NCBI GenBank assembly: GCA_027214385.1
Contig: JAPVXR010000007.1
Location: forward strand, 62,001-126,000
DNA from: Cryomorphaceae bacterium 1068
Lineage (GTDB): Bacteria; Bacteroidota; Bacteroidia; Flavobacteriales_D; Cryomorphaceae
Direction of reading: 5' to 3'
DNA: 64,000 bases
The position numbers were made by a program, and so were the translations under genes. Below, in pieces: positions 34,005 to 49,964 of the stretch (position 1 is its first letter; every line of letters begins with the position of its first letter). The notes under the pieces were generated by a model. It searched no databases and was not told the origin of the DNA. It worked only from the letters and a program-made list of their open reading frames with translations.

Positions 34005-36131
34005 TTATAAGTGCAAATCGATGTAATTCAAAACCTTATTCATCAAATGTATGCGATCTTTTCCTCGCACATTGTGCGGATGACCCGGATACGTGAAAAA
34101 GTCAACTTGAACGCCGGCGTCAACAAATGACTTGAGCAGAGAATAAGAATGCTGTGGCACTACCACGTCGTCATCCAATCCGTGGATCAAAAGAAGATCT
34201 CCTTGAAGATTTTCAACGTAGTTATTCAATTTGGCCTTCTTGAATCCTTCAGGATTTTCATCAGGTGTATCCATGTAGCGCTCGGTGTACATGATCTCAT
34301 AAAGACTCCAATCGGTAACGGGACCACCCGCTACCCCGACTCCGAAAACGCCCGGGTGACGAAGCATCAGCGATGTAGTCATAAACCCACCATAGCTCCA
34401 ACCGTGAACGGCCATTTTGCTAGAATTGACGTAAGGCAATGTTTTCAGATAATCCACACCTGCCAATTGATCTTCCATCTCCACATCTCCCATGTTTCTG
34501 AAAGTTGCTTGCTCAAACTTCAGTCCTCGATGACCTGAACCACGATTGTCGACCGTGAAAATCACGTAACCACGATTTGCGGCGTGGAACATCCAGAGTG
34601 GTGCACCTGCAGTGCGGTTGTTCGTGATCATTTGGGCGTGAGGTCCGCCATAAACATAAACAATGACGGGGTACTTTTTGTCAGGATCAAAATCATAGGG
34701 TTTAATCAGCCGCCCTTGAAGCTTCGTACCATCAGAAGCCTGCAAAACGGGTAGTTCGATATCACCCATTTGATATTCCGTTAATGGGTCATCCGCCTCA
34801 ACCAAGTTCAAGACTTTTTTGCCCTTAGCATTCATGATGTAAACATCATTTGCCACAGTCATCGATCGCTCCCGAACCAAGAACAACTTCGAGTCAGTAT
34901 CAAAATTCACCGAAAATGAAGACTCATCACTGGTCAACTTCTTGAGCTTTCCAGTATTTAAATCAGCTACTCCGAGTGCCTCACTCATCAAGCCCTCAAC
35001 TGTTTCCACTAAGATCCCACCATCTAATTGACCTTGATATTCGAGTACATCGAAATCGCCCGAGGTGACTTGTCTGACCAAGGAACCGTCGGCCTTGTAT
35101 AGATAGAGATGATCAAACCCGTCGCGCTCGCTGAACCAAAGAAAACGGCCATCTTTCAAGAAAATCGGTCCTCGTTCTGGCTCCACATAAGCTTCGTCTT
35201 CTTCCGTAAAAAGAGTGTTTTCAAATGCTCCCGTGCTGGTGTTGTAAACGTTCAGCTGCATCTTATTCTGACCTCGATTGACGATAGCGAGGTAGGCTTT
35301 TTTGCCGTTCGGTGAAAAAGTGAAATTCGTGTAGTATTGATCCTTCGGCCCGGTAGTCTGCAAGTAATAAGTCGTATCCCGCTGAGCATCGTAGATTCCT
35401 ACCCTGGCAGTATGACTGGATTGACCCGCCATAGGATACTTGATTGGGCGCGGCTCTCCCGGAATAGTGGAATAATCTGCCAGTGGATAATCCGTCACTT
35501 CAGATTCATCCATTTCGTAAAAGCCAAGCATCGCTCCACTTTCAGACCAGAATAGGCCGTTTACAATTCCAAATTCCGAACGGTGGATGGCAATTCCTGC
35601 TGATACTTCAGACTCTACGGTATGATTGGTCACTTGCCTTTCGGGCGAACCTGAAGACTTGTAAAAAACATTGGGGCCAACGGTGTAAGTAACGGAGCCT
35701 GATGAAGGATGAAATGTAATATTCTTCGCATTTTCGGGGTAAGTCAACACTTGTTGCAAATCAGACCCATCGGAATTCATGGAGTAGAAGATTCTTTTTC
35801 CCGAAAGGAAAATTTTTCCATCAGCTACCTCTTTAGCCCTTAATCTTCTTAGCGTATCGCTATTCGATTTTTTGAGCTCATCGTTAATCGCGCTAAGTAC
35901 GTGAAGATGCAGTGTATCACCATCGAGGTTTCTGACGATTAGATCACGGTTTTCTCCAGAATGAATGAACTGTTGATTCGGCAACCAGTGAAAACCGGAA
36001 ACTGTCTCAGGGGCGAGACTTTTGTTTGGTTCCATAATGGCCGTGGCCATATCAATTTCTTTCTTTTCGGTCTGTGCAAATGACTGCTGAACGAGAATAG
36101 CTAGCAATAAAATCAGGGATAGTTTTCGCAT
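34005..36131 (-). CDS. Dipeptidyl peptidase IV-like serine peptidase (S9B)
   Basis: 708 residues from the ATG at 36131, which opens a signal peptide (MRKLSLILLLAILVQQSFAQ). The N-terminal half is the eight-bladed beta-propeller (repeated blades such as GREDGF-type FSERDGFDHLYLY); the C-terminal hydrolase has the nucleophile in HGWSYGGFMT, the Asp in LIHGLDDDVV and the His in YPGHPHNVRG. Removes dipeptides, usually X-Pro, in the periplasm. Length and motifs are complete. Confidence 0.94.
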   Translation of the reverse strand: MRKLSLILLLAILVQQSFAQTEKKEIDMATAIMEPNKSLAPETVSGFHWLPNQQFIHSGENRDLIVRNLDGDTLHLHVLSAINDELKKSNSDTLRRLRAKEVADGKIFLSGKRIFYSMNSDGSDLQQVLTYPENAKNITFHPSSGSVTYTVGPNVFYKSSGSPERQVTNHTVESEVSAGIAIHRSEFGIVNGLFWSESGAMLGFYEMDESEVTDYPLADYSTIPGEPRPIKYPMAGQSSHTARVGIYDAQRDTTYYLQTTGPKDQYYTNFTFSPNGKKAYLAIVNRGQNKMQLNVYNTSTGAFENTLFTEEDEAYVEPERGPIFLKDGRFLWFSERDGFDHLYLYKADGSLVRQVTSGDFDVLEYQGQLDGGILVETVEGLMSEALGVADLNTGKLKKLTSDESSFSVNFDTDSKLFLVRERSMTVANDVYIMNAKGKKVLNLVEADDPLTEYQMGDIELPVLQASDGTKLQGRLIKPYDFDPDKKYPVIVYVYGGPHAQMITNNRTAGAPLWMFHAANRGYVIFTVDNRGSGHRGLKFEQATFRNMGDVEMEDQLAGVDYLKTLPYVNSSKMAVHGWSYGGFMTTSLMLRHPGVFGVGVAGGPVTDWSLYEIMYTERYMDTPDENPEGFKKAKLNNYVENLQGDLLLIHGLDDDVVVPQHSYSLLKSFVDAGVQVDFFTYPGHPHNVRGKDRIHLMNKVLNYIDLHL

Positions 36132-36150
36132 AGGATATTGTTGATGCGGA

Positions 36151-36183
36151 CAAATATAACAGTTGTAAGATTCCGTATTTTTG
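36151..36183. promoter_or_regulatory. Divergent TAnnTTTG promoter boxes
   Basis: TATATTTG on the minus strand (36151-36158) lies 20 bases before the peptidase ATG; TATTTTTG on the plus strand (36176-36183) lies 5 bases before the DUF3299-like ATG. Both match the Bacteroidota -7 consensus. The second leaves almost no leader, so its gene may be leaderless or start a little later. Confidence 0.45.
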
Positions 36184-36187
36184 CAGA

Positions 36188-36631
36188 ATGGAAAAAGCGA
36201 AGTCACTTATATTTCTTCTCCTTTTGATGGGCTCTGCCGTCTTTGGTCAAAATGATGTCTTGATTACTTGGGACCAGCTGGCCGACGTTCGATTTGAAGA
36301 GACCTACGACGAAGGAACAGGGTCATTTTACGACAAGCCGGTCTTCGGTCCGATGATTCAATCGATGGAAGGTCGGGATGTAAAGATCACAGGGTACGTG
36401 ATTCCAATGGATGTTAATCTCAATGTTTACGTAGTGAGTCGCTTTCCTTTTAGCTCTTGCTTCTTTTGCGGAAACGCAGGACCTGAGACGGTGGTAGACC
36501 TTCAGATGAGCGACAAATCAATCACTTTTAAAAACGACGACAGACGAACGTTTTGCGGACGCTTGTTGCTGAATACGGAAAGGTATTCCGAATTGCCTTA
36601 CATCCTCGAAGATGTAAAGCTATGTCCTTAG
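36188..36631 (+). CDS. Exported DUF3299-like protein
   Basis: 147 residues with a signal peptide (MEKAKSLIFLLLLMGSAVFGQ). The block DVKITGYVIPMDVNLNVYVVSR followed by SSCFFCGNAGPET matches the DUF3299 layout, with the CFFC pair and a later FCGRLLLNT as probable metal or redox cysteines. In other bacteria this family sits near zinc or metal export and import genes; here it is convergent with a probable metal-uptake locus. Function not established. Confidence 0.72.
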   Translation: MEKAKSLIFLLLLMGSAVFGQNDVLITWDQLADVRFEETYDEGTGSFYDKPVFGPMIQSMEGRDVKITGYVIPMDVNLNVYVVSRFPFSSCFFCGNAGPETVVDLQMSDKSITFKNDDRRTFCGRLLLNTERYSELPYILEDVKLCP

Positions 36632-37356
36632 TCTACTTCGATCGAATAGGTCTCTCGTCTCTGATGACCAATGAAATCCTGGGCTTTCAATTCCATCTCG
36701 ACCGGAAACACCTCTAGACTTTCAAAAAAGACCGTATCGGGCGCAGAAGTTAAATCGAAAAGCGTGGTATCGGGCAAAGCGTAATTCAGACTGAGCAAAG
36801 TCAGGCCCAATTCATCTTTGAAAGTAATGCTAAAGGAATCAAGGGTATCAGGATCACTCACCATACCTGAAAACGTTAGTGTATCGCTTTCGCCAATGCG
36901 CAATACTTCGTCTGCTCCTAAAGAAGGATTTGTATCAAAATCGATGATCATCGGCTCCTCTCCCATTTGGCGAACCAAAAATTGGAGAGTCGAATCAACT
37001 GAGCCGTTGCCGCGCTCATCAGAAACCTGAATACTTATTTCATAAAGCCCTGCCAGAGCCGAATCAGGAACGGGGTATAGGAAGTTGGCAGTGAAGGTGG
37101 ATCCTGAAAGATCTCTGACTTCAACGAATTCCCAGAAACCAAAAGATTTAGCAAAAGCTTCGCGAATTCTAGACCTCACTTGTCCCAGTTCTTCATTGTC
37201 TCTTCCCGAGACGCTGACTTGCAAAGTTTCTCCCGGAGAAAATGAATTATCGTTTAATACCAGTGATGTTATCACAGGATCTACCTCATCGTCTGAGACT
37301 GTTGTACAACCCACAAAAATTGCCAGAAAAAAGAAAAGGCCGGCTTTTCGAATCAT
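36628..37356 (-). CDS. Lipoprotein with Ig-like domain (DUF4625-like)
   Basis: 242 residues from the ATG at 37356; the lipobox is FVGC after MIRKAGLFFFLAI. The first 130 residues form a beta-sandwich with GETLQVSVSGRDNEELGQVRSRI and GLYEISIQVSDERGN, as in DUF4625 proteins; a second beta-rich part follows. Probably an outer-membrane lipoprotein helping the TonB receptor upstream. Last gene of the minus-strand unit from 40743; overlaps the convergent gene by 4 bases. Confidence 0.65.
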   Translation of the reverse strand: MIRKAGLFFFLAIFVGCTTVSDDEVDPVITSLVLNDNSFSPGETLQVSVSGRDNEELGQVRSRIREAFAKSFGFWEFVEVRDLSGSTFTANFLYPVPDSALAGLYEISIQVSDERGNGSVDSTLQFLVRQMGEEPMIIDFDTNPSLGADEVLRIGESDTLTFSGMVSDPDTLDSFSITFKDELGLTLLSLNYALPDTTLFDLTSAPDTVFFESLEVFPVEMELKAQDFIGHQRRETYSIEVD

Positions 37357-37387
37357 GGGCGAAATGTACGAAAAGCCAGCCATTGAA

Positions 37388-37993
37388 TTAATCGACGATC
37401 GTCAAATTGAAGGTGACATCAATATCAGTCTCACCGCCCGATCCGGCAAAATCATCAATAGCAATTCCCGTTGCATCCTTGTTCAATTCATGGCGCAAAA
37501 CGATTCGAACGGTCCCATTATCTGCAGTTGGTTCATTCGTATTCCAAATCGTAGATAATCCCACAGGATTTCCATTTCCATCAACATCAAAAATATCGTA
37601 AGAAATGTCTATTGAGTTATCTGCAGATTCAGCGATATAGAAAAATTGATGAGCTTCATCTTCATCCATAATCTCTGTGGTGATATCCTCCACGTCATTT
37701 GGATCAGAAGCATCGAGTACCTCCACACTGACAGAGTACGAAGTGCTGTCATCTATGAAAATGTCATCAACTGCAGGAGGGTCACCTCCGGGGCCGTCAG
37801 GGTCACTAAACATAAAAGTCACCTGCGATTGGTCATCCGTATTCGTAAAAGTCAAAACCAAATCTGTGATAAGCTCTTCTTCATTCGTTGAGCCCGGTGG
37901 GGTATCATCATTGTCGTCGTCTTTTTCGCATGATGTGAATGAAAAAGCCATAACGGCGATAAGAGAGAATCTAAGGTATTTTGAAATATTCAT
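37388..37993 (-). CDS. Lipoprotein partner of the TonB receptor
   Basis: 201 residues with a lipoprotein signal (LIAVMAFSFTSCEKDDD). The mature part is very acidic after the Cys (EKDDDNDDTPP), then beta-rich with EDITTEIMDEDEAHQFFYI and IVLRHELNKDATGIAIDDFAGSGG positions 165-190. This family is recurrent next to ZnuD-like TonB receptors in Flavobacteriia. Acidic and His residues may bind metal. It starts 11 bases after the receptor gene, so it is co-transcribed. Confidence 0.72.
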   Translation of the reverse strand: MNISKYLRFSLIAVMAFSFTSCEKDDDNDDTPPGSTNEEELITDLVLTFTNTDDQSQVTFMFSDPDGPGGDPPAVDDIFIDDSTSYSVSVEVLDASDPNDVEDITTEIMDEDEAHQFFYIAESADNSIDISYDIFDVDGNGNPVGLSTIWNTNEPTADNGTVRIVLRHELNKDATGIAIDDFAGSGGETDIDVTFNLTIVD

Positions 37994-38004
37994 TTGTTCT
38001 GTTT

Positions 38005-40353
38005 TTAAAAATTGTGTTTGATTCTAAGTGTAATGTTCAGTCCCTGTTCGTCCATGTAGTAGCGGAATCGGTTCATGTAATTTCGGTAAGTGGTGTTCAG
38101 CATATTTTCAACTCCCAATTGAAAAGACGTTTGTCCTAGCCTCAATCCCGCTCTTGCGCCAAGCAAAAAATAACCATCGGGGGCTGCGGCAAAATCAAAG
38201 CTCGAGGGCAGAGTCGAAGTCGATCCCGCTTCGAAAACTGATTCAAATGGAAAAACTTCTGGAGCGCGGTATTGCTCCATGGTGTAATTTCCCGAAAGGG
38301 CAATCCAAGGTTGCTTGATTTTATTCAAATCATCCCAGGTCTTTTTGAACTCTAGGGCAAATTGATGGGCAGGAATATTGATAAAGAAATCTCCCGTCCC
38401 CACATTCTGCGCCCAGACCAAGCTGGCTGTCACCAAATAAGCAAACCCTTTATTGAGCTGACCGTCCACCTGTATATCTGATCCCCAATACAGCGCATCC
38501 GTTTGCTCATAGTCAAACCGAGGAAAAGCCCCTCGAATCGTCAATTCGATGTCGTTTGGATTGAGGAAAATGTAATTCTCGATGTAGTTGGTGTAGGCTG
38601 TCGCCAATACGCGTGTCCGACCGAATACCCTTCGCCAAGTTGCACTCAACGAGTACGATCGTTCCTGCAAGAGTTCGCTATTCCCCTGCTCGATGGCACC
38701 TACTCCGTGGTGCAGGCCGCTGGCAAACAATTCATTTACCGCAGGCGCACGCCAAAAAGTAGCAGCCGAGAGCGTCAAGTCACCCGATTCGAGGTCTTTC
38801 TTTGCCGCCAAAGCCGCGCTTAATCCATCAAAACTCAGGTTGAGCGGATCGTCCTCACTTCCAATGGGATTGAAAATATCGGCATCGTAACGCTCGTAGC
38901 GAATGCCGTATTTCAATTTCCAAATTCCGAGATTCCGTTGCTCCAAGGCGAAGGCACCAAAACTGCTGTTTCGGTAGTTGGGCATGAAGTTTCTCCCCCT
39001 GAACGTATTTTCGCGGAAGAGACCCGTCACTCCGACACTTCTCGAAAGAGCGCCCACCTTGTTCCGCCAGACCAATTCACCGAGGTGAGTGGTCAATGCG
39101 TAATCCAATTGGGGACGCGCCAACTCTTCGGCAGAGGGATTGATTCCCACGTGCACATCGAACTCCTTGCGGGAGTTGAATTGACGCGAGTAAATGGCCT
39201 CGATCTTGTTTTCAGCGTCCAGCTCTACCTCCACGCGCCCTTTGAAGAGCTCGTGGCCGATATCCTGATACGGCCGATTGATGTCGTAAGAGAAGTCGGT
39301 GGTATCGGGATTGCTCCGAATACCCGTGATCACTTCGTAGAGATCGGTGAGATTTCCCAGGTGCGAGTAGCGATAAATCCCGATCCGCTGATTGAAATTG
39401 CTGTAGAAAACTTCCGCTTTCCACGCATCTCCTTTCCAGCCCAGAGCGTAGGAGTAATTTAATTCCTCTGCTCCCGTATTGACCAAAAAGACATCGGGGG
39501 TTTTCATATCGCCAAACTTCCTGCTCGAAATCTGCCCGCGAAAGTAAAGCGGAAACTTCTCCGAAACCCTTCCCATCAGCTCACCTCCCAGTGCTCCGCC
39601 TCTGCCGTTGGTCGCCCCCATTCCCGTGAGCGATCCCGAGAGGGAATCACTACCGAAGACATCGGCGGGCTCAACCAGAAGCAATCCTCCGATCGCATCG
39701 GGCGCGTAGCGCAGCGCATCTACACCTTCGATCACACTGACCTGTTGAGCCAGAAACGGATCGATTTCGGGAGCGTGCTCCGAGCCCCAGTACTGACCTT
39801 CCTGACGAACGCCCGCGTTGAGCACCAGCAAACGATTTCCTTGCAAACCACGAAAGACGGGCTTGGCAATGGTGTTTCCCGTTTCTTGCATGCGCATACC
39901 CGGAATAGCCAAAGCCTGCTCGGCCAATTGGAGGCCTGTGGTGCTTTCCAATTGCGCTTCTCGCACTCCGATTTTGGTGAGCACCAATTCCTTCTCTTCC
40001 TCTCCCACCACTACGAACTCGTGTAAAATTGACTCGTCGTGGTTGAGTGAGAAAACGAAAGTCGTATCTCCCGAAAGTCGAATGACCTTCTTTTGCGGAG
40101 CACAGCCAATGTGAGTGACTCTTAAGGTATAGTCACCCACACAAATCCCTTTTAGAGAAAAGAATCCCGCCGAATCGGCATAGGCACCTTGACTCGACTC
40201 TTGAAGAATGACGGAGGCAAAACTGAGTCCTTCTCCTGACTCGGCATCTACCACTTGGCCATCGATCTGAATGGTACAATTATCCTGAGCATTGACAGCG
40301 TCAACACCCAAAAGACTCATAAGGATTGAAACAATCCAAATGAAGGGTTTCAT
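38005..40353 (-). CDS. TonB-dependent receptor, ZnuD-like, probable metal uptake
   Basis: 782 residues. Signal peptide, then a carboxypeptidase-like beta-sandwich (IDGQVVDAESGEGLSFASV), the plug domain (GNTIAKPVFRGLQGNRLLVL and EGVDALRYAPDAIGGLL), and a 22-strand barrel ending in Phe (RIKHNF). The plug segment GQYWGSEHAPEIDP recalls the DHA box of zinc receptors of the ZnuD type. With the His-rich small protein gene just upstream and two lipoprotein genes downstream, import of zinc or another transition metal is inferred. No Zur-like palindrome was recognised. Confidence 0.85.
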   Translation of the reverse strand: MKPFIWIVSILMSLLGVDAVNAQDNCTIQIDGQVVDAESGEGLSFASVILQESSQGAYADSAGFFSLKGICVGDYTLRVTHIGCAPQKKVIRLSGDTTFVFSLNHDESILHEFVVVGEEEKELVLTKIGVREAQLESTTGLQLAEQALAIPGMRMQETGNTIAKPVFRGLQGNRLLVLNAGVRQEGQYWGSEHAPEIDPFLAQQVSVIEGVDALRYAPDAIGGLLLVEPADVFGSDSLSGSLTGMGATNGRGGALGGELMGRVSEKFPLYFRGQISSRKFGDMKTPDVFLVNTGAEELNYSYALGWKGDAWKAEVFYSNFNQRIGIYRYSHLGNLTDLYEVITGIRSNPDTTDFSYDINRPYQDIGHELFKGRVEVELDAENKIEAIYSRQFNSRKEFDVHVGINPSAEELARPQLDYALTTHLGELVWRNKVGALSRSVGVTGLFRENTFRGRNFMPNYRNSSFGAFALEQRNLGIWKLKYGIRYERYDADIFNPIGSEDDPLNLSFDGLSAALAAKKDLESGDLTLSAATFWRAPAVNELFASGLHHGVGAIEQGNSELLQERSYSLSATWRRVFGRTRVLATAYTNYIENYIFLNPNDIELTIRGAFPRFDYEQTDALYWGSDIQVDGQLNKGFAYLVTASLVWAQNVGTGDFFINIPAHQFALEFKKTWDDLNKIKQPWIALSGNYTMEQYRAPEVFPFESVFEAGSTSTLPSSFDFAAAPDGYFLLGARAGLRLGQTSFQLGVENMLNTTYRNYMNRFRYYMDEQGLNITLRIKHNF

Positions 40354-40395
40354 AAAATGAAAAATTAGAAGTTGAATGAAATTGCTGTCTTGGGA

Positions 40396-40743
40396 TTAGG
40401 CAACAGGCGGAGCTCGAGGGCTCGAAACTTCCAGAGGATCAAAGCAAACAACATTTTCATATTGGTAAAAATGAGCTTTGGGCAATGCTTTTACAAAGCC
40501 TTGTGATTTTACCTGAGGTAAAAAATTAGTGCTTGTTTGGATGAGCACACAAAGCTCACATTGGTGTTCGTGAGAACAGATTGAATCTTGACTTGAATCC
40601 GCTTCGTGGTGATGACCATCACAGGTTTCATGTTGCTCCTCCTCATGGTGACTTTCGTGCAATAAGGTATGCAAGCCGGCCTCGGAAAGAAGCAGCCCCA
40701 TAAGCAAGGCAAAAGCTAAAGCGATATTTTTACGAAAATTCAA
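40396..40743 (-). CDS. Small His-rich exported protein
   Basis: 115 residues. A signal-like N terminus (NFRKNIALAFALLMGLLLSEAG) is followed by a metal-binding stretch HTLLHESHHEEEQHETC, then DGHHHEADSSQDSICSHEH, and a CELC pair. Start is taken as TTG at 40743; an ATG at 40701 would leave a shorter signal. It leads the metal-uptake unit, 42 bases before the TonB receptor. Probably a periplasmic or surface metal collector or sensor; exact role unknown. Confidence 0.72.
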   Translation of the reverse strand: MNFRKNIALAFALLMGLLLSEAGLHTLLHESHHEEEQHETCDGHHHEADSSQDSICSHEHQCELCVLIQTSTNFLPQVKSQGFVKALPKAHFYQYENVVCFDPLEVSSPRAPPVA

Positions 40744-40748
40744 GAGTG

Positions 40749-40756
40749 CAAAGATA
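40749..40756 (-). promoter_or_regulatory. TAnnTTTG box before the His-rich gene
   Basis: On the minus strand TATCTTTG matches the -7 consensus and ends 5 bases before the TTG start, so the transcript would be nearly leaderless or translation starts further in. Confidence 0.35.
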
Positions 40757-40767
40757 AGTATTGCGGA

Positions 40768-40860
40768 TTACTGCTTTACTACCAATTGGGAAGAAACAAC
40801 CCTCATCTGCGCAAATAATATTTGAGGTATTCTAGAAAAACCAGGTTTTAGCCACCGCAA
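40768..40860 (-). pseudogene. Remnant of a T9SS type A sorting domain
   Basis: On the minus strand a frame ending in a stop at 40768 reads IPQILFAQMRVVSSQLVVKQ, closely like the end of the DUF4465 protein encoded at 43904 (YILQALIGGVVSSQSVVKR). The frame is closed by TGA about 40 codons upstream and has no start, so it is a fragment of a T9SS cargo gene. The matching DNA forms a direct repeat across the cassette array. Confidence 0.5.
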
Positions 40861-40948
40861 GGAAGTATAGTATCATTCTATTCTTGGAGAAGCAACAGAC
40901 TTGCAAATGCAGTGGAGAGGATCTTATAAATTAAATTTTCCCGATAGT

Positions 40949-40997
40949 CGTAGAATCAGATTATACGTATGAATATACGTGTAATTCAATTCTACGG
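40949..40997. repeat. Imperfect inverted repeat
   Basis: CGTAGAAT..ATTA.ACGTAT pairs with ATACGT.TAAT..ATTCTACG around a short loop, about 18 of 22 positions matching. It lies left of the cassette array. No T-run follows and the flanks do not give attC spacing, so its role is unclear. Confidence 0.5.
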
Positions 40998-41108
40998 CTT
41001 TGAACCGTTGCATTGCAATGAGCTGCAGCAGCGCCGCAAAGCTTTTATTGGTTATACTTGTGTAGAGAAATACAGAAGAGTGAAGACATCATCGAGAACA
41101 TAAAAAAA

Positions 41109-41162
41109 CATCAACCATAAGCTGAATAACCCGCACGAGTGCGTGTTATTCAATTGTTGTGT
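41109..41162 (+). repeat. attC-like recombination site A
   Basis: CAAC at 41112 pairs with GTTG at 41156; inside, TGAATAAC (41123-41130) pairs with GTTATTCA (41145-41152), and CGCAC pairs with GTGCG at the tip. This box-spacer-box-loop plan and a length near 54 bases fit integron attC sites, with GTTGTGTTC as the right core box. The left core is less canonical than in the next two sites. Confidence 0.5.
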
Positions 41163-41230
41163 TCAATTGAAAGAAAAGTTATCTCGGGTACGGTTTGGGC
41201 CCGAATTTGACGGGAGCGGAGCGCGGATGT

Positions 41231-41439
41231 GATCGGGCCGACGAGTCTGATACCGACGGAGGATTAAAGCGTGAATAGAGACGCGAGCGGACGAAGTAGT
41301 CGCGGATTTTTCGCTTACAGCTTCTGCGAACGCCACGGGAAATCATTTTAGGATCTGATCGCTTTGAAGGTGAGCCGAGACTCTGCCGTCAGTGGAATAG
41401 GAAAGTGGATGACTTTTTGAAGCGCCGCGGGGCCCGATC
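41231..41439 (+). ncRNA. Possible structured RNA in the ORF-less cassette
   Basis: This GC-rich stretch lies in a cassette without a credible ORF. GATCGGGCC at 41231-41239 is perfectly complementary to GGCCCGATC at 41431-41439, and a nearer 7-base pairing joins 41198-41204 with 41233-41239; the two pairings would be alternatives. No known RNA family is recognised. Confidence 0.25.
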
Positions 41440-41477
41440 GCTGAGAATGTTGGTAGGGTGCAAAAAAAATAAAGACT

Positions 41478-41614
41478 GAACACAACAAGACCTATGATCA
41501 CATGCGGGTTTTGGTCTTCGGAGAAAAGAGGTTAATTTGGGAGTGAAATTTAAGGCTTCGGATGTGAGATTGGCGGTGAAAGTCCGCACGTGTCATAGCC
41601 TGAGCGTTAGGCAC
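41478..41614 (+). repeat. attC-like recombination site B
   Basis: R'' GAACACAAC (41478-41486), a 4-base spacer, then a stem CCTATGATCACATGCGG (41491-41507) pairing with CCGCACGTGTCATAGCC (41584-41600), a 5-base spacer, and R' GTTAGGC (41606-41612), an exact match to GTTRRRY. The long variable loop of about 76 bases is normal for large attC sites. Confidence 0.75.
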
Positions 41615-41631
41615 AATTAAGAGAATGAATT

Positions 41632-42888
41632 ATGAAAATTGAATTTGTATCACATGCTGGATTCATTGTAGAAGCAGGATCAAAAAAAATATTTATTGAC
41701 CCTTGGACAAAGAGTAAAACTTTCAATGACAGTTGGGCTCTTCTTACTGGAGATATTGAGGTTGACTACTCGGGAGTAGATTACATTTTTGTTACTCATG
41801 AACATCCTGATCATTTCAATTTCCCAACTTTAAAAGGAATTGATATCCATGATAAGAAAAGAATTAAAATCCTTTATCAAAAACACGCATCAACAAGACT
41901 AAAAGATGCGTTTGAAAAACTCGGGTTTTCTCAAGTAATCGAATTACCTATTTATAAATGGACGAGTGTAGATAAATTTGAATTATACTGTGGTTCTGCT
42001 GGTTCAATGGATTCGTTTCTAGCCATAAAATCTGACAATAAAAGTATCGTTAATTTGAACGACTGTGTCTTCAGAAAAAAACAATACGAATACATCTCAA
42101 GACAAATTGGAAAAGTTGATTTTCTTTTTACTCAATTTTCATTTGCAAATTGGGTTGGTAATCAAGAAGATGAAATCGGAGCTTCAAAGAAGAAGATTGA
42201 GGACCTCTTCCTACAAAAAGAAATTTTTTCACCCCAATATATAATTCCATTTGCGAGTTTTGTCTACTTCTGTAATGAAGAAAATTCTAGAATGAATGAT
42301 TGGATTAATTCGCCAGAAGATATTGCCAAAATTCAAATTCCTGAAATTCAATTTATGTACCCTCATGATAAAATCGACACTAATAACACCTTTTTTAATT
42401 CAAAATTAGCCGTTGAAAAATATATGAGGGATTTTAAAAAAATGATCATTGATCCTACTCCCGCTCAAATTCCTTTTCAAGAAATTACTTTAGCAATAGA
42501 GGCAAACTTGAAAATATTTAAAAAGAAAATTAAATACCCATTCAGAAGAATGGTAAAACCTTTTGGAATTTATATTCATGATATAGATAGATCTATTTTT
42601 ATAGACCCTAAAAATGGCAAATGGACTGAAACTTCCAAGGAAAACACGAGATACTCAATGTGTAGTCAAGTTTGCTGGTATACGTTTAAATATGAGTGGG
42701 GAACAGGTACACTTCAAGTTTCTGGAATGTTTTTAGACCGAAAATATCCAGAACCTACTTCCAAATACTTCTTCTTTCAAAATATGTTATCGACTGGTTT
42801 TTTGTCAACTAAATCAATTCGCCAAACCTTCAGAACATTAAATTTTATTTGGAGAAAAAAATGGGAAATATTTTATCGTTTTGTATGA
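41632..42888 (+). CDS. Metallo-beta-lactamase-fold hydrolase, CMAH/UlaG-like, cassette-borne
   Basis: 418 residues. The N-terminal domain is an MBL fold: VSHAGFIVEAGSKKIFIDPW, the metal motif THEHPDHFN and a later SIVNLNDCVF Asp. The layout, with an N-terminal His not preceded by a beta-lactamase-like leader and a C-terminal extension of about 170 residues containing SMCSQVCWYTFKYEW, resembles the MBL module of CMP-N-acetylneuraminate hydroxylase-like proteins more than beta-lactamases. Reaction unknown; an oxidoreductase or sugar-modifying role is possible. The gene is AT-rich and starts 25 bases inside its cassette, with the attC-like site 9 bases after the stop, the usual tight fit. Confidence 0.78.
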   Translation: MKIEFVSHAGFIVEAGSKKIFIDPWTKSKTFNDSWALLTGDIEVDYSGVDYIFVTHEHPDHFNFPTLKGIDIHDKKRIKILYQKHASTRLKDAFEKLGFSQVIELPIYKWTSVDKFELYCGSAGSMDSFLAIKSDNKSIVNLNDCVFRKKQYEYISRQIGKVDFLFTQFSFANWVGNQEDEIGASKKKIEDLFLQKEIFSPQYIIPFASFVYFCNEENSRMNDWINSPEDIAKIQIPEIQFMYPHDKIDTNNTFFNSKLAVEKYMRDFKKMIIDPTPAQIPFQEITLAIEANLKIFKKKIKYPFRRMVKPFGIYIHDIDRSIFIDPKNGKWTETSKENTRYSMCSQVCWYTFKYEWGTGTLQVSGMFLDRKYPEPTSKYFFFQNMLSTGFLSTKSIRQTFRTLNFIWRKKWEIFYRFV

Positions 42889-42896
42889 CAAAAAAA

Positions 42897-42961
42897 GTGC
42901 CTAACAACAGCTATAGCGCATACCCTGAGGGATACGCACCATAGCCAAAACGTTGTAAGTC
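42897..42961 (+). repeat. attC-like recombination site
   Basis: R'' GTGCCTAAC (42897-42905; GCCTAAC fits RYYYAAC), a 4-base spacer, GCTATAGCGCATACC pairing imperfectly with GGATACGCACCATAGCC, a 5-base spacer and the core GTTGTAAGTC (42952-42961). The spacers and the CTAT/ATAG inner boxes are the same as in site B. 65 bases long. Confidence 0.75.
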
Positions 42962-42982
42962 ATTGAATAAATCTCAAAAATT

Positions 42983-43675
42983 ATGAATAAAATCAAAAGT
43001 GCAATCAAGAAAATTCCTCTATTAAGAAATATAGCAATGTATTTTTATAAGAATGTTTATGGCACCTCAGAGTTTAGAAATTCAGGTGAATATTGGGAAA
43101 ACAGATATAAATTAGGAGGTGACTCCGGAGCAGGTTCTTATAATATTTTAGCTGAATTTAAAGCCGAAGTGATTAATGAATTTGTAAAGAAAAATGATAT
43201 CGAAACAGTTATAGAGTTTGGGTGTGGAGATGGAAATCAACTAAAGTATTTCAATTTTAAATCCTACATTGGTTTTGATGTCAGCAGAACTGCGATAAAT
43301 AAATGCCGTGACATGTACGAATCTGATTCGACAAAACAGTTTGAAACCTTAGAATCCTACAATAAGGAAAAAGCCGATCTCGTGTTAAGCCTTGATGTTA
43401 TTTATCACCTGATTGAAGACATCACCTATTTTGATTATATGAAGAAGTTGTTTTCTTCATCCAATAAATACGTAATAATTTATTCTTCAAATGATGACGA
43501 ACATGAGAATAATAATGTGGCTGCACACGTAAAACATCGAAAATTTACGAACTGGGTTGAACACAATGCTCCTAATTTTAGGATGATAAAACAGATCCCT
43601 AACAAGCATCCATTTAACGGGATTAATGAGGTCTCATCATACGCAGACTTTTTTATTTTCCAAATTCAAGATTGA
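42983..43675 (+). CDS. Class I SAM-dependent methyltransferase, cassette-borne
   Basis: 230 residues. Motif I VIEFGCGDGNQLKYF, acidic loop YIGFDVSRTAINKC and motif IV LVLSLDVIYHLIED are clear. The N terminus begins with a basic helix (NKIKSAIKKIPLLRNIAMYF) as in methyltransferases tied to polysaccharide or lipid substrates, but the substrate is unknown. AT-rich, same orientation as the upstream cassette gene, starting 30 bases inside its cassette. Its own attC-like site is degenerate. Confidence 0.8.
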   Translation: MNKIKSAIKKIPLLRNIAMYFYKNVYGTSEFRNSGEYWENRYKLGGDSGAGSYNILAEFKAEVINEFVKKNDIETVIEFGCGDGNQLKYFNFKSYIGFDVSRTAINKCRDMYESDSTKQFETLESYNKEKADLVLSLDVIYHLIEDITYFDYMKKLFSSSNKYVIIYSSNDDEHENNNVAAHVKHRKFTNWVEHNAPNFRMIKQIPNKHPFNGINEVSSYADFFIFQIQD

Positions 43676-43681
43676 CAAAAC

Positions 43682-43815
43682 GAATTACAATATTTTGTAC
43701 AAGTAATGGCAGGAAAAGTGCTAAAAATTGAGATTTATATACCGGTCTAACCGCGTAGCGATTTGAAAAGAAAGAGGCCCGCAATCTGCCACTAATCAAT
43801 AATTTACCGTTGGGA
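43682..43815 (+). repeat. Degenerate attC-like site at the right end of the array
   Basis: GAATTACAAT (43682-43691) partly matches the expected complement of the cassette start (GACTTACAAC); AAGTAATGGCAG (43701-43712) pairs at 8 of 12 positions with CTGCCACTAATC (43786-43797); GTTGGG at 43809 could be the core. Spacers are 9 and 11 bases, unlike the other sites, so this may be decayed. Confidence 0.35.
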
Positions 43816-43903
43816 AAGCCGCATCATTGCAAGTGCAGCATAGCGCTGTTGACTATTCACTTCATGAACAAGGGCAGTATATCAAATCGGATCTTATTGT
43901 CCA

Positions 43904-44845
43904 TTATCTTTTTACTACCGATTGAGAAGAAACAACTCCACCAATCAGCGCCTGCAAAATATAGGTACCCGTTTGCAAATTTTCCAAATTGATTTCATTC
44001 ACATTCTTCTCTTGCAAAACGAGTCTCCCGTTCACATCAAAAACAGAAATCAATTCAGGGATGGATTCTCCTGAAATGCGAATGCGATCTGTTGTGGGGT
44101 TGGGATAAACTTGGAACAATGCTTCTTGCTCGTTTCGAGTTGAAAGGAGATTATTGGTGATAAAATCATCGATACAGAAATAAGCAGGGGTATTCATCCC
44201 GAACTCTCCGACATCGCTGGAGGTAAGCGTGAACGAAAGGCTGTCGGCAGCGCCTAGGCTTGAGAGATCAACGTACGTCCACTCGTCTACGATGTAGTCC
44301 TGAGAATTGTCGGTAAAGGTGAAGTCAGCCAAATAGAATTCCACTTCGTTTGGCATAAGCTCTCCACCTGAATAGGCCTGAATCGTCAGCAAGAAAAAAT
44401 CGGGATCGTTGCCCGTGAGGCCGCCAAATTTCTTGGAGAAGGAATCGCCGTCCAGCATGCTGAAATAGGCGTAAGTGCTGTTGGTGATGTACACTCCTTC
44501 TTGGCTTGCTCCATTTTCCAGACGTACGACGGACTCACCCGAAACATAACCTGTGGCGTAGGTATCTGAATTCAGACCTTGGCCTGTGATGGCGCTGTAT
44601 TGATTCGTAAAGCCGGGAGTCGTGTTATCTGATTTGTTGGTAATCGCCCAGCCCGACCAGCTGGAAAAGTCGGTGTTGTAATCGTTGGGCAAGAAAATAG
44701 CACCATCGCCGAAGCCCCCGCTTAAGTCACTTCCATTTAAAAAGGATTCAGGCTGTAGGTCGAAATTCTCAAAACCCGCGGTGGTTGTTTGGGCATTGGA
44801 AATGGTGAAGGCGATTGCAAAAAGAGGTAGAATTAAGTTTTTCAT
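43904..44845 (-). CDS. DUF4465 protein with T9SS type A sorting domain, cobalamin-locus associated
   Basis: 313 residues. Signal peptide (MKNLILPLFAIAFTISNAQ), then a DUF4465 beta-sandwich (FLNGSDLSGGFGDGAIF, SWSGWAITNKSDN, NQYSAITGQG), and a C-terminal T9SS sorting domain beginning VYPNPTTDRIRISG and ending SSQSVVKR. It is therefore expected to be exported by T9SS and fixed on or released from the surface. Its start overlaps the stop of a BtuB-like receptor gene by 4 bases and both are downstream of a cobalamin riboswitch, so a role in capturing cobalamin is inferred. Confidence 0.85.
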   Translation of the reverse strand: MKNLILPLFAIAFTISNAQTTTAGFENFDLQPESFLNGSDLSGGFGDGAIFLPNDYNTDFSSWSGWAITNKSDNTTPGFTNQYSAITGQGLNSDTYATGYVSGESVVRLENGASQEGVYITNSTYAYFSMLDGDSFSKKFGGLTGNDPDFFLLTIQAYSGGELMPNEVEFYLADFTFTDNSQDYIVDEWTYVDLSSLGAADSLSFTLTSSDVGEFGMNTPAYFCIDDFITNNLLSTRNEQEALFQVYPNPTTDRIRISGESIPELISVFDVNGRLVLQEKNVNEINLENLQTGTYILQALIGGVVSSQSVVKR

Positions 44846-46761
44846 TGATTGGTTTTCACATGATCGTAGGAAATGCGGATACCCGCTTGAAAGTTTATAC
44901 CCGGCATGGGGCGGCGATCGATGACGAAGTAGTCGGCATCGTATAGATTCATGATATCGAAGAAAAAAGAAGCACAGACTTTGCCTTTGTCTTGCTTGGC
45001 TTCGCCGGAATACTGAAGACGGACATCGGCCGTGTGGAATTCGGGAATGGGCTCGTTCACCCCTCTGGAGGCTCCCGTATAGGAATGCCGATACGAGATG
45101 GACAGGCCACGGATCTCAACTTTAGCTGAGACAAAAGCCATTTGCTCAGGGGTGTAAAGCAATTGCGCTCCCACCTCCATTCCGGGCACATCTGAATTTC
45201 CTCCATTAGTGGACAGGGTCTTATCGTAACCTCCGTCGATGAAAAGTTCAAGATTTGAGATGTAGATTCTACTGCTTGCTCTTAACTCAAGGCCTCGGCT
45301 CCAAACCGTTGCCAGATTTGAGGCTGACCAAAATCCTGAACCTTGCTGCGGGCTCCACATGATCCAATTATCAATTTCGCGGTTAAAGCCCGTAATCGAC
45401 CATTTGAACACCGAATTCTCGATTAGAAAGCGATTCTCAATGGTGGCCTCCTGACTCCAGCCCGATTCAGCTTTGAGATCGGGGTTTCCGCCTGGCACCC
45501 AAAAGCGATCATTCAGCGTAGGAAGCCTGAAATTCTTTGAGATCTTCCCTTTGATCAACCAATTCTTAATCGGGCTGTATTCCGCACCAATAGACGGAAC
45601 GGGCGAAACCAGCTCTCCGTCAAAAGATTCTTGACGCAACTCGGCTTGAAGAGTCAAGTCTCTTGCCGTGTAGCGCCACATTCCGAAGACAGACCAGCGG
45701 TGCTCTCGGGCTGTTTCTCTGTACTCATCTGCCTCAGCTTGTGTGACAGTTTGGGTGTGTCCGATAAAAAACCCATTCTTTTCACTCAGCGAAAATTCTC
45801 CTGAGGCTTCCGCCAAATACGTCTGGAAACCACTGGGAGCTTCAAGGCCAATGGACGGATCGGAGAAAAGAATTTGCTCGTCAAAAAAAGCAGCTTTGAC
45901 ATTTAACTTAAAACGGGCCGACTCGCGCCGATACTTCAGCATGGTGCGTGTCACCTCATCTCTTTGTTCGGCCAGACTTCTCGTTTGCACATTGGTGGGA
46001 GGAATTTCCCGAAAGGAGTTTTGATGCCAAATATGCGCGGTGAGTTGATCTTTATCAGAAATCTTCCAACCCAAATCCTGCGTGAAAATTCGCTGACTCA
46101 ATTCGGCGTTGGTTTGTTCCCTTTCGGGCAAATCAGGCGAAATGGGATATCGAAAATCATTGCGTGCTTCGCGGTACTCGAATGTGGTTTTGGACGAAAA
46201 GATCTTTGAACTCAGCTGAATGGATGTGGCTTGCCGCAGCCTGCCGAAATCTCCAAGTACGGTTTCGGAGCTCACACCAACACCATTCGAGAATGAAATT
46301 CCATTCTCCAGATTAATGACACCGCCGATGGCACCGCTTCCCCATGCTCCCGAACCACCGCCGCGCTGCAATCGCACGGAATTGAAAGAGCCGAGTGGCA
46401 GCAAGCTCAAATCGAGTTGGCCCAGCATAGGGCTTTGCACGGGCAATCCATTCCAAAGCACCAATGTGTGACCCGCCGCTCCGCCGCGAAAGGAAGAAGT
46501 AGCCAAGCTTCCCAAGCCGTAGGACTTGATGTAAATCCCCTCTTCTCGCAGTAGTTCCGAAAGGTCTGAAGCAGATATCGAATTTATCTCTGCAGCTGTC
46601 CACTGCTTCACTTGCGAGCCCGGACTCTGACTACGAATGCCTTCAGCCGAAATTTCGACCACGGGAATTTGAAGCAAGGTGTCCGCTTGACCCTTCGCCG
46701 TCATTGCCGAAAGGCCGAAAATGACCCAAAGTAAAAGCACATGTCTTAAGCTGACATTCAT
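44842..46761 (-). CDS. btuB: TonB-dependent receptor, BtuB-like (cobalamin uptake)
   Basis: 639 residues from the ATG at 46761, which opens the signal peptide MNVSLRHVLLLWVIFGLSAM; an ATG 27 bases upstream adds nine charged residues. Plug: IPVVEISAEGIRSQSPG as TonB-box region, GAAGHTLVLWNGLPVQSPM and QRGGGSGAWGSGAIGGVINL; then a 22-strand barrel. The size (BtuB is about 600) and the riboswitch upstream point to vitamin B12 or a corrinoid as the ligand. Co-transcribed with the DUF4465 gene. Confidence 0.9.
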   Translation of the reverse strand: MNVSLRHVLLLWVIFGLSAMTAKGQADTLLQIPVVEISAEGIRSQSPGSQVKQWTAAEINSISASDLSELLREEGIYIKSYGLGSLATSSFRGGAAGHTLVLWNGLPVQSPMLGQLDLSLLPLGSFNSVRLQRGGGSGAWGSGAIGGVINLENGISFSNGVGVSSETVLGDFGRLRQATSIQLSSKIFSSKTTFEYREARNDFRYPISPDLPEREQTNAELSQRIFTQDLGWKISDKDQLTAHIWHQNSFREIPPTNVQTRSLAEQRDEVTRTMLKYRRESARFKLNVKAAFFDEQILFSDPSIGLEAPSGFQTYLAEASGEFSLSEKNGFFIGHTQTVTQAEADEYRETAREHRWSVFGMWRYTARDLTLQAELRQESFDGELVSPVPSIGAEYSPIKNWLIKGKISKNFRLPTLNDRFWVPGGNPDLKAESGWSQEATIENRFLIENSVFKWSITGFNREIDNWIMWSPQQGSGFWSASNLATVWSRGLELRASSRIYISNLELFIDGGYDKTLSTNGGNSDVPGMEVGAQLLYTPEQMAFVSAKVEIRGLSISYRHSYTGASRGVNEPIPEFHTADVRLQYSGEAKQDKGKVCASFFFDIMNLYDADYFVIDRRPMPGINFQAGIRISYDHVKTNQ

Positions 46762-46884
46762 AATCTTCTTGCAAAACTCACTTCGCAAAAAGACGATATG
46801 TAGAAACAGGGAAACCTATCAAGCAGCAGAAAACTGCTTGGGTGACGAGTTTGAACATTGCTCTTTGTGCGAAAGCAAAATCCA

Positions 46885-47002
46885 TACGTCAAGGGAGGCA
46901 TTCTGGCTTACAGCTCCATGTCTGCTTACAGTTGCGCAACAGCTCGTGACTTTCACACGATTCCCCTCTTTCGGTCCGCCACAGGCGGACAACCTTGAAG
47001 TA
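46885..47002 (-). promoter_or_regulatory. Cobalamin riboswitch
   Basis: Read on the minus strand the conserved core GGGGAATCGTGTGAAAGTC, then CTGTTGCGCAACTGTAA, then the B12 box AAGCCAGAATGCCTCC (46893-46910) follow the family order. Closing stem P1 forms between TACTTCAAGG (46993-47002) and CCCTTGACGTA (46885-46895). Binding of adenosylcobalamin or a related corrinoid should shut off the btuB and DUF4465 genes downstream. Confidence 0.93.
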
Positions 47003-47132
47003 CGTGCGGCAAAAGTAGGGATTAAAAGCAGCATGAACGGCGATGAATGAATTTTTCTCAATTAAAAAAAGTAAAGAATGTGGCGTGGAGAATAGAAATG
47101 GATGAAGGGTGATTTAAAGCGCTGCGTCTCCT

Positions 47133-47140
47133 TATATTTG
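47133..47140 (+). promoter_or_regulatory. TAnnTTTG promoter box for trkA
   Basis: TATATTTG matches the -7 consensus 27 bases before the trkA ATG. Confidence 0.45.
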
Positions 47141-47166
47141 TACAAATTTTTCAGAAGACATCTTGA

Positions 47167-48507
47167 ATGAAAGTTATCATAGCCGGTGCAGGAGAAGTAG
47201 GATTTCACTTAGCGAAACTCCTAACAATGGAGGGGCATGCCTTAACGGTAATCGATAAAGATCCCGACTCTTTACAGCACATTTCACAGCACTTGGATTT
47301 GGAAGTATTGGAGGGAAGTTCGACCTCCATCAATATGCTGACCAGTGCGAAGGTGCAGAAGGCAGACTTGGTCATCGGTGTCACGAACAGCGAGGATGTC
47401 AATATTACCACCTGCATCATGGCCAAGCACCTCGGTGCAAAGCGAACGGTAGCTCGGATCTCAAACGTAGAATTTCTGACCAGCAAAGAAAAACTGGACA
47501 TGGCCGAAATCGGTATCGACGAGTTAATCTCGCCTGCCTCATTGGCCGCTCGTGAAATCAAGCGACTTTGCAAAGAGTCAGCTCTGACAGACTTCATCGA
47601 TTTTGACAAAGGCAAGCTTTCAATAATGGGCTTGAAAGTGGAGCACGATAGCCTTGTGGCCGGAAAAACCATCGAGGAGTTATCCCACTTGAATAGCGAA
47701 AAGAACTTCATCACCGTAGCCATTCTGAGAAACAACGAAACGATCGTTCCGAAGAGGGATACGCGCTTTTTGATTAATGATCACGCCTATTTCTGCGCCA
47801 ATCCTGAAGGACTGGATCGGGTATTGGAGATTTTCAAAAAAGATCGTGTTGAAATCAAGCACATCATGATTTTGGGAGGTAGTGCAGTGGGATACCACGC
47901 TGCAAAAGCTCTGAGCAAGCAGTACCGAGTAAAGTTGGTCGAGCCAATAAAAGAGCGGTGCATCAAATTGGCAGAGCAGCTTCCCGACACGCTCATCATC
48001 AATGCCGACGGTAGAAACGTAGATATCCTCGAGGAAGAAAACCTATCTGAAATGGATGCATTTATTGCCGTAACGGGCAATAGTGAAACCAATATCATTA
48101 CAAGTCTGGTCGCTAAAAACCATGGTGTGGATAAAACCATCGCCTTGGTAGAAAACATTGACTACATCCACCTTTCGCAGAGCATTGGGGTAGACACTTT
48201 GATCAATAAAAAATTGATCGCTGCCAACTTCATTTTCCGCTACATACGTCAGGGTGAAGTGCTTTCTTTAACGAGCTTGCACGGAGCAGATGTGGAAGTT
48301 TTGGAGTTTGAGGTTCCGCCGAATGCAAAAATCATAGGAAAGACTATCGGAGATTTAAAGTTTCCAAAAAATGCAGTAGTCGGAGGAGTCGTTCGCGATG
48401 GGCATGGCCGCATTCCCGATAGCAATTTTGAGTTTGCAGAAAAAGACCATATCGTTGTGCTTTCTAAGTTACAATGTATTCACAAGGTAGAATCGTACTT
48501 TAAGTGA
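47167..48507 (+). CDS. trkA: Trk potassium uptake regulator TrkA
   Basis: 446 residues made of two RCK halves, each with a NAD-binding Rossmann start (KVIIAGAGEVGFHLAKLL and IMILGGSAVGYHAAKAL) followed by a TrkA_C domain. It gates the TrkH channel from the cytoplasm. Its stop overlaps the trkH GTG start by 4 bases. Confidence 0.96.
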   Translation: MKVIIAGAGEVGFHLAKLLTMEGHALTVIDKDPDSLQHISQHLDLEVLEGSSTSINMLTSAKVQKADLVIGVTNSEDVNITTCIMAKHLGAKRTVARISNVEFLTSKEKLDMAEIGIDELISPASLAAREIKRLCKESALTDFIDFDKGKLSIMGLKVEHDSLVAGKTIEELSHLNSEKNFITVAILRNNETIVPKRDTRFLINDHAYFCANPEGLDRVLEIFKKDRVEIKHIMILGGSAVGYHAAKALSKQYRVKLVEPIKERCIKLAEQLPDTLIINADGRNVDILEEENLSEMDAFIAVTGNSETNIITSLVAKNHGVDKTIALVENIDYIHLSQSIGVDTLINKKLIAANFIFRYIRQGEVLSLTSLHGADVEVLEFEVPPNAKIIGKTIGDLKFPKNAVVGGVVRDGHGRIPDSNFEFAEKDHIVVLSKLQCIHKVESYFK

Positions 48508-49964
48508 GAATCAATCTAATCGGTATTATTAATATCCTCGGCGTATTGCTCTTTATCAATGCCGGGTTGATGCTTTCCTGCATCCCGTTTGCCGTATATT
48601 TTGATGACGGCACATTGATCAATTGGATCAGTTCGGTCGGAGTGAGCGGTGTCCTCGGAGCTTTGCTTTGGTTTTCTACTTTTCATCACGCCAAAAGAAG
48701 AAACATCAAAAAGCGGGATGGATATATCATCGTGACGTTAAGTTGGGTGGTGATGGCAATGAGCGGAGCGGTACCTTTTATGCTCACCGATTCCATTCCC
48801 AATTTTACCAATGCTTTTTTTGAGAGCATCTCAGGGTTTACTACCACGGGGGCTACGATCTTGGACGATATTGAAAGTCTGCCTGAGAGCATTCTCTTTT
48901 GGCGAAGCCTTACCCAATGGGTCGGTGGTTTGGGATTTATTGTATTAGTTATCAGTATTCTTCCTTCCCTCGGCATCGGCGGAATGCAGCTCTTTTTGGC
49001 GGAAGCACCAGGTATTACGGCAGATAAGATTCAGCCGCGAATTCAAGATACCGCAAAGCGACTTTGGTTTCTCTACATAGGCTTGACCTTGATAGAAATG
49101 GTGATACTCTACTTCGCCGGAATGTCTTTTTTTGACGCCATAAATCATAGCCTTACCACCATGTCTACAGGTGGATTCAGCACGAAACAAGCTAGTATCG
49201 CGTACTTCGAATCGCCCGCCATCGAGTACATCATCACCTTTTTCATGTTCCTCGGCGGAACCAGTTTTGTACTGATTTACTTGGCCCTTAAAGGCAAATT
49301 TGCTCGAATCTGGCAAAACGAAGAATTTCGAGCCTACACTACTCTGACTTTTGGGGTAACCGTGGTGGTTTCGATTATCCTAATGTTCAAAAGTGGGCTT
49401 CCTCTGGAACAGGCATTTCGCGAAAGTATTTTTCAGGTAGTCGGAGTTCTCACCACTACGGGGTTTGCCACAGCTGATTTCACTGTATGGGGCGGTAGTG
49501 TGGCTTTGATTTTCTTCACTTTGATGTTTGTGGGTGGCTCTGCGGGTTCGACCGCCGGTGGAGTGAAAATCATCCGTCACTTGATGATTGCTAAAAACTC
49601 CATCACTGAGTTTAAAAGACAATTGCACCTTTCGGCAATAATTCCGGTACGCTTCAACGGCAAAGCAGTAGCCCACGAAATCACCAGAAACATTCTGGCC
49701 TTTGTGATTATTTACCTCACCATTTTCGGTATTGGGTCGGTTTCGCTAACTCTGCTTGGAATGGATGCGCTCACGGCAATGGGTTCCGTAGCCACCTCCT
49801 TGGGTAATGTAGGACCGGGATTGAACGAAACGGGACCTTCTTTAACCTTCTCCCAAATTCCTTCTTTGGCGAAGTGGATTTTGGGTGCATTGATGGTAGT
49901 CGGTAGACTTGAGATTTTTACCGTACTCATAATTTTCACCGGTTATTTCTGGAGAGATACATGA
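48504..49964 (+). CDS. trkH: Trk potassium channel subunit TrkH
   Basis: 486 residues, about ten membrane helices. The selectivity-filter loops are visible: ESISGFTTTGATIL, TTMSTGGFSTKQ, VVGVLTTTGFATADF and TSLGNVGPGLNETG. Forms the K+ path gated by TrkA. Starts with GTG inside the trkA stop and ends overlapping the HAD gene by 4 bases. Confidence 0.96.
   Translation: MRINLIGIINILGVLLFINAGLMLSCIPFAVYFDDGTLINWISSVGVSGVLGALLWFSTFHHAKRRNIKKRDGYIIVTLSWVVMAMSGAVPFMLTDSIPNFTNAFFESISGFTTTGATILDDIESLPESILFWRSLTQWVGGLGFIVLVISILPSLGIGGMQLFLAEAPGITADKIQPRIQDTAKRLWFLYIGLTLIEMVILYFAGMSFFDAINHSLTTMSTGGFSTKQASIAYFESPAIEYIITFFMFLGGTSFVLIYLALKGKFARIWQNEEFRAYTTLTFGVTVVVSIILMFKSGLPLEQAFRESIFQVVGVLTTTGFATADFTVWGGSVALIFFTLMFVGGSAGSTAGGVKIIRHLMIAKNSITEFKRQLHLSAIIPVRFNGKAVAHEITRNILAFVIIYLTIFGIGSVSLTLLGMDALTAMGSVATSLGNVGPGLNETGPSLTFSQIPSLAKWILGALMVVGRLEIFTVLIIFTGYFWRDT

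Follow-up and report, generated by a model that had tools for sequence, protein, structure and literature searches.

Introduction

How does a row of integron-type gene cassettes come to lie in a bacterial chromosome with no integron integrase nearby? The window analysed here, a 64 kb stretch of contig C7 in the draft genome of Cryomorphaceae bacterium 1068 (G000), raises this question. A first-pass annotation had read part of it as a CALIN-like array whose mobile cassettes were acquired through an integrase encoded elsewhere. Bacteroidota have been listed among the integron phyla, without detail (PMC8618304). For Bacteroidetes, where only In0 had been reported before, IntegronFinder 2.0 recovered one complete integron, in Salinibacter (PMC9024848). 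Below, G, C and L numbers denote genomes, contigs and loci, and positions are those of the window unless a contig is given.

Anatomy of the array

The window array runs from an attI-like head through a non-coding cassette and a metallo-beta-lactamase-fold cassette to a methyltransferase cassette (Table 1). The G|TT cores lie at 41156, 41606 and 42952, exactly where they had been placed at first. In the ORF list, cassette 1 has no forward-strand entry that reaches 50 aa. Both of the complementary pairs originally claimed proved perfect: the start of cassette 1 (41156-41164) is the reverse complement of its own R'' (41478-41486), extending to 10 bases, and that of cassette 2 (41606-41614) matches R'' at 42897-42905 over 9 bases. 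Neither of these R'' 9-mers has a second occurrence in the 64 kb window.

Table 1. Features of the cassette array, in window coordinates.
Feature	Position	Strand	Remarks
attI leader	41053..41114	+	resembles the stretch directly 3' of the C16 recombinase stop codon
attI-like head	41115..41158	+	CCATAAGCT; palindrome 41124-41151, AATT, G|TT
Cassette 1	41156..41605	+	450 bp; 10-base R'/R'' match
attC1	41477..41615	+	long terminal structure of ~75 nt; 39.3 bits with model R1; training row
Cassette 2	41606..42951	+	9-base R'/R'' match
Metallo-beta-lactamase-fold protein, 418 aa	41632..42888	+	PF13483, 32.7 bits; in cassette 2
attC2	42896..42961	+	53.1 bits, E 1.7e-10; outside the training set
Cassette 3	42952..43808	+	begins at the attC2 G|TT; degenerate attC at its end
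SAM-dependent methyltransferase, 230 aa	42983..43675	+	PF13489, 39.1 bits; in cassette 3
attC3, decayed	43684..43815	+	~79% identity over 124 nt to a G020 attC

The first two attC sites read ACACAAC-AAGAC-CTATGATCACATGCGG ... CCGCACGTGTCATAG-CCTGAGC-GTTAGGC (attC1) and GCCTAAC-AACAG-CTATAGCGC ... GCACCATAG-CCAAAAC-GTTGTAA (attC2). Both have the canonical layout R''-5 nt-L''-terminal structure-L'-7 nt-R'. The CTAT/ATAG inner boxes had been named correctly, while the spacers, given earlier as 4 and 5 bases, measure 5 and 7 nt by the present box limits.

We searched with a home-made covariance model (R1) built from 28 attC sites, the E-values of which are rough. Strong matches stood above the noise: attC1, as a training row, reached E 3.2e-7, attC2 scored better still (Table 1), and no other match in the window was better than E 0.9. 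Because the training sites had been picked for their stems, covariation by itself is not independent support; the attC2 match is. The third site is decayed, with R'' changed from ACAAC to ACAAT, but its alignment to an intact G020 attC scored 138, where the best of 300 shuffles reached 51. Together with the R'/R'' matches, the model matches bear out the reading of these units as integron-type cassettes. The only Rfam match in the window falls outside the array: a cobalamin riboswitch (RF00174, 48.4 bits, 46876-47012, minus strand) upstream of a TonB-dependent receptor gene (44842-46788, minus strand).

The cargo of cassette 2 could not be traced to another array, since its metallo-beta-lactamase relatives (loci L029-L043) have no attC around them; nor does a methyltransferase homologue lie beside any of them. 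Its protein is 74% identical to one from Lishizhenia tianjinensis. There the DNA likeness ends at the ORF ends, and attC is absent from that copy. A plasmid search with the same protein returned distant relatives only.

Insertion relative to the congener

Positions 36000-50000 of the window are colinear with contig C56 of G001, the single congener at hand. The distance from the TonB receptor gene to the gene at 43904 is 3.5 kb in the window and 323 bp in G001. The array is an insertion, missing at the syntenic place in this closest congener. The alternative that had been set against the cassette reading, one arrangement conserved across distant relatives, thus failed. With 29% identity between the two diverged TonB receptors, the insertion point can be located only approximately. 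Beside the receptor gene lies a small His/Cys-rich ORF (40396-40743, minus strand), perhaps metal-related, for a counterpart of which the 323-bp gap in G001 is too small.

Arrays across the genome

The genome has at least 12 cassette arrays, among them the one in the window. Model R1 found about 30 attC sites in G000 at E < 0.003, on contigs C3, C5, C6, C7, C9, C12, C13, C16, C20 and C21. The genome was searched by model and read in stretches, with the best candidates alone scored, so these counts are lower bounds for a draft genome. A scan for consensus and stem in 193 kb of own-genome DNA, from stretches chosen for holding similar sequence, gave 6 sites scoring at least 15, compared with 0.3 in Markov-shuffled sequence. 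About 20 cassettes could be delimited by R'/R'' matches of 9-10 bases. Among the proteins they encode are a fatty-acid desaturase, an esterase, a DJ-1/PfpI protein, a PQQ-type propeller and a TIR protein. The last (L127:5963-6818, on G000:C3) is of the CAP12/Pycsar type and matches the PADLOC candidate defence family PDC-S35.

AT-rich DNA often contains short inverted repeats, and chance hairpins and repeats might be mistaken for cassettes. We regard this account as ruled out. Hairpin partners and 9-10-base R'/R'' matches recur in successive cassettes, some 20 of them in all, and the model E-values and the congener without an array speak against it as well.

attI-like heads

Variants of the array's left end, CCATAAGCTGAATAAC..GTTATTCAATT|GTT, occupy at least 12 places in G000, and every copy terminates at the G|TT where a unit begins. 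In the window the head is the palindrome followed by CAATT|GTT. The sequences upstream of the heads fall into a few related families. Alignment of the window leader to the C16 leader scored 54, with a shuffle maximum of 31, and the window leader also resembles those of a C5 head and one C13 head. Further upstream, at 40946-41000, there is a degraded second head-like hairpin, ATTATACGTATGAATATACGTGTAATTCAATT followed by CTAC, not GTT; this stretch is also found above one C13 head and one C5 head.

Between the stop codon of a tyrosine recombinase gene and the C16 head there are about 107 bp, and the first cassette of this head has a 10-base R'' match and a 51.7-bit attC. Since it stands behind the recombinase and is followed by a closed canonical cassette, we consider this head an attI by position. 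The other G000 heads match this attI and also the one beside a recombinase remnant in G002. A search of the 600 bp upstream of the gene-less heads found no recombinase remnants. In the complete genome G009, two further attI copies lie far from the recombinase gene, one less than 1 kb from an attC match and the other within about 6 kb of one, so the multiplicity of attI sites does not come from faulty assembly.

A recombinase without the patch

The C16 gene (G000:C16:81999-83123, 374 aa) is the sole recombinase gene found joined to such an array in G000, and we take its product as the candidate integrase. There is no tyrosine recombinase gene on the window contig. Two further Xer-like genes, on C8 and C9, could carry out chromosome-dimer resolution at dif. 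The catalytic R, K, H-x-x-R, H and Y can all be read from the C16 sequence. When the protein is aligned to VchIntIA (2A3V), the alignment has a break precisely where the additional domain lies. The stretch compared after the KGGKDR motif counts 31 residues in this protein (30-33 in the patch-less enzymes) and 73 in ten IntI of the same phylum. The C16 recombinase and its homologues all lack the ~42-residue additional domain of IntI (I2, or the patch). Against the IntI model the C16 protein scored 184.5 bits, short of the cut-off of 265, and against the XerA-type model NF040815 it scored 226 bits, above the cut-off of 220.

IntI above the curated cut-off was found in none of 100 relatives and in 105 of 395 genomes drawn from the phylum; just one of the genomes with strong matches in that draw belongs to the window's class. 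The proposal that the cassettes came through an integrase elsewhere is partly upheld: the search yielded no IntI in the accepted sense, but it did yield a patch-less recombinase joined to an array with the same type of head. In a tree made by a quick method with SH-aLRT support only, IntI are united with full support on a long branch, and most attI-linked patch-less enzymes belong to two clades; its rooting is too weak to tell whether the patch was lost or never gained.

The same order in other genomes

We fetched about 60 homologues; those that show the same arrangement in other genomes of the order have 35-73% identity. In G009, G020, G021, G050, G053 and G098 the recombinase gene is followed on the same strand by the palindrome (mostly 50-110 bp behind the gene), a few nucleotides, G|TT and attC cassettes. 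The G053 array has seven consecutive units closed by 7-10-base matches. The palindrome and G|TT also stand behind the gene in G010, G028, G033, G042, G056 and G095, where the downstream sequence was too short or a nearby attC was not found, and directly behind it in G099. G002 has a gene remnant only, yet palindrome, G|TT and attC sites are present. Cassettes follow heads of a different form in G001, G083 and G087, and in G034 the array is divergent from the recombinase gene, as in common integrons.

Two sets of loci extend these observations. Behind the patch-less recombinase at L076 (G099:C1:2322000-2340000) are attC-like sites of about 160 nt to which model R1 is blind; these longer sites are perhaps another attC type. 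The system probably has further branches in more distant patch-less recombinases, at L151, L152, L158, L164, L092 and L150. In these the gene is followed at about 60-120 bp by a palindrome or the end of the contig, and some show heads that read ATATAAAT.A|GTT.

The 3' end of the gene lies less than 300 bp from a contig end in 22 of 62 cases and the 5' end in 1 of 62, a clustering that a repeat behind the gene predicts. Sites of the attC type were present in 16 of the 20 genomes with the two main attI-linked recombinase clades and in 26 of the 80 without (p 2e-4), in a test that ignores shared descent and uses clades chosen after the tree and arrays had been seen. Some arrays in those 26 genomes without this recombinase type may have another origin, or the gene may have been lost or lie in an assembly gap.

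These comparisons bear on whether the window holds an ordinary CALIN, its cassettes delivered by a patched IntI of an ancestor or donor that has since been lost, with the patch-less enzyme an unrelated Xer-like protein. Where intI has been lost, CALINs are a frequent finding (PMC8618304). The decay of attC3, the attC sites in recombinase-less genomes and the patched IntI in other classes of the phylum would all fit such a history. We nevertheless consider it unlikely: many genomes have the recombinase, the attI-type palindrome and the cassettes side by side, the 100 relatives have no IntI over the cut-off, and the G000 heads match the attI sites at the G002 remnant and the C16 gene.

Which strand of attC folds

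Stem mismatches in 17 G000 attC sites were G.T pairs of the bottom-strand polarity 27 times and of the reverse polarity twice (p 1.6e-6). The stem score treats both strands alike, so this polarity was not built in, and it makes the bottom strand probably the folding one. On this evidence, the strand that stays foldable would be the bottom one, as it is in known integrons. Among the relatives, 6 of 23 stems were perfect, without extrahelical bases. In attC recombination by IntI, I2 reads these extrahelical bases; stems that offer none would suit a patch-less enzyme.

The wobble bias also weighs against a division of labour in which the patch-less enzyme acts only on double-stranded attI, scattering the heads by attI x attI exchange, and attC is left to host XerC/XerD or an outside IntI. 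Exchange between double strands is a known activity of enzymes that lack I2, the attI palindromes resemble paired binding boxes, and the Xer-like genes on C8 and C9 could supply the second activity. But the enzyme's own attI bears a cassette, with the attC junction exactly at G|TT, and we find this division quite improbable.

Discussion

We put at roughly 70% the probability that this genome has an integron-like system with several attI sites, operated by a patch-less Xer/XerA-like integrase. Circular cassettes would be inserted by the C16 recombinase at palindrome-headed attI sites (palindrome, ~4-6 nt, G|TT), the attI being recombined with the folded bottom strand of attC. Gene-less attI copies across the chromosome would serve as further landing places, the window array among them, and the C16 recombinase would act on that array in trans. 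We infer that it would catalyse both attI x attC and attC x attC recombination, on single strands.

In every anatomical respect tested, the system appears to work like an integron. It has foldable attC sites with R'', L'', L' and R' boxes, cassettes that begin with the complement of their own R'' (the first two in the window, and about 20 genome-wide) and, judged by position and sequence alone, an integrase gene adjoining an attI with a G|TT insertion point (G000:C16 and homologues). It shares with the IntI integrons, both class 1 and sedentary chromosomal, the attC R and L boxes, the G|TT crossover, tandem arrays with mostly one ORF per cassette, an attI beside a tyrosine recombinase gene and, as the wobble pairs suggest, a bottom-strand fold. 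Unlike in those integrons, the recombinase has no additional domain, the attI takes the form of a palindrome downstream of the gene's 3' end, with gene and array co-directional, there are many attI copies per genome, and some attC stems are perfect, without extrahelical bases. The IntI-specific domain was looked for and is missing, so we do not file the system as a strict-sense integron.

Taken by itself, the window array has what defines a CALIN, at least two attC sites and no integron integrase nearby, and to this extent the original label stands: attC1, attC2 and the decayed attC3 lie on a contig free of tyrosine recombinase genes. As a full account, we reject a plain CALIN. The array begins with an attI-type head, which is common to at least 12 arrays, and a candidate integrase with the same head type is present in the genome. 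The enzyme itself resembles XerA (NF040815, whose model it passes) and XerC/XerD in its patch-less catalytic domain with R, K, HxxR, H and Y. It differs from them in its linkage to attI and attC cassette arrays and, often, in an N-terminal extension of about 100 residues.

Evidence against a patch-less integrase comes from IntI1, which is inactivated by deletion of I2 (PMC7790495). The domain has been described as necessary for cassette capture and as occurring in no other protein (PMC7790495), and for archaeal integrons it was said to be a defining character (PMC9668308). An origin of I2 before attC sites existed has been called a chicken-and-egg paradox (PMC4792948). Our literature search, with preprints and most subscription journals outside its scope, found no paper on patch-less integron integrases.

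With somewhat less confidence than for the genome itself, we favour a lineage-wide integron-like system in the order of this genome, probably the Flavobacteriales judging by the nearest named relatives, that would combine a patch-less Xer/XerA-like integrase, attC folded from the bottom strand and many dispersed palindromic attI sites; I2 would then be unnecessary for attC recombination, or a pre-I2 state would be preserved. Such a system may represent a form of bacterial gene capture that has gone unrecognised. If so, detectors that require the IntI domain report such systems as CALINs or miss them, and a large bacterial group deemed integron-poor has a gene-capture system of its own. A natural I2-less integrase family beside attI and attC arrays would make the question of the origin of I2 directly testable.
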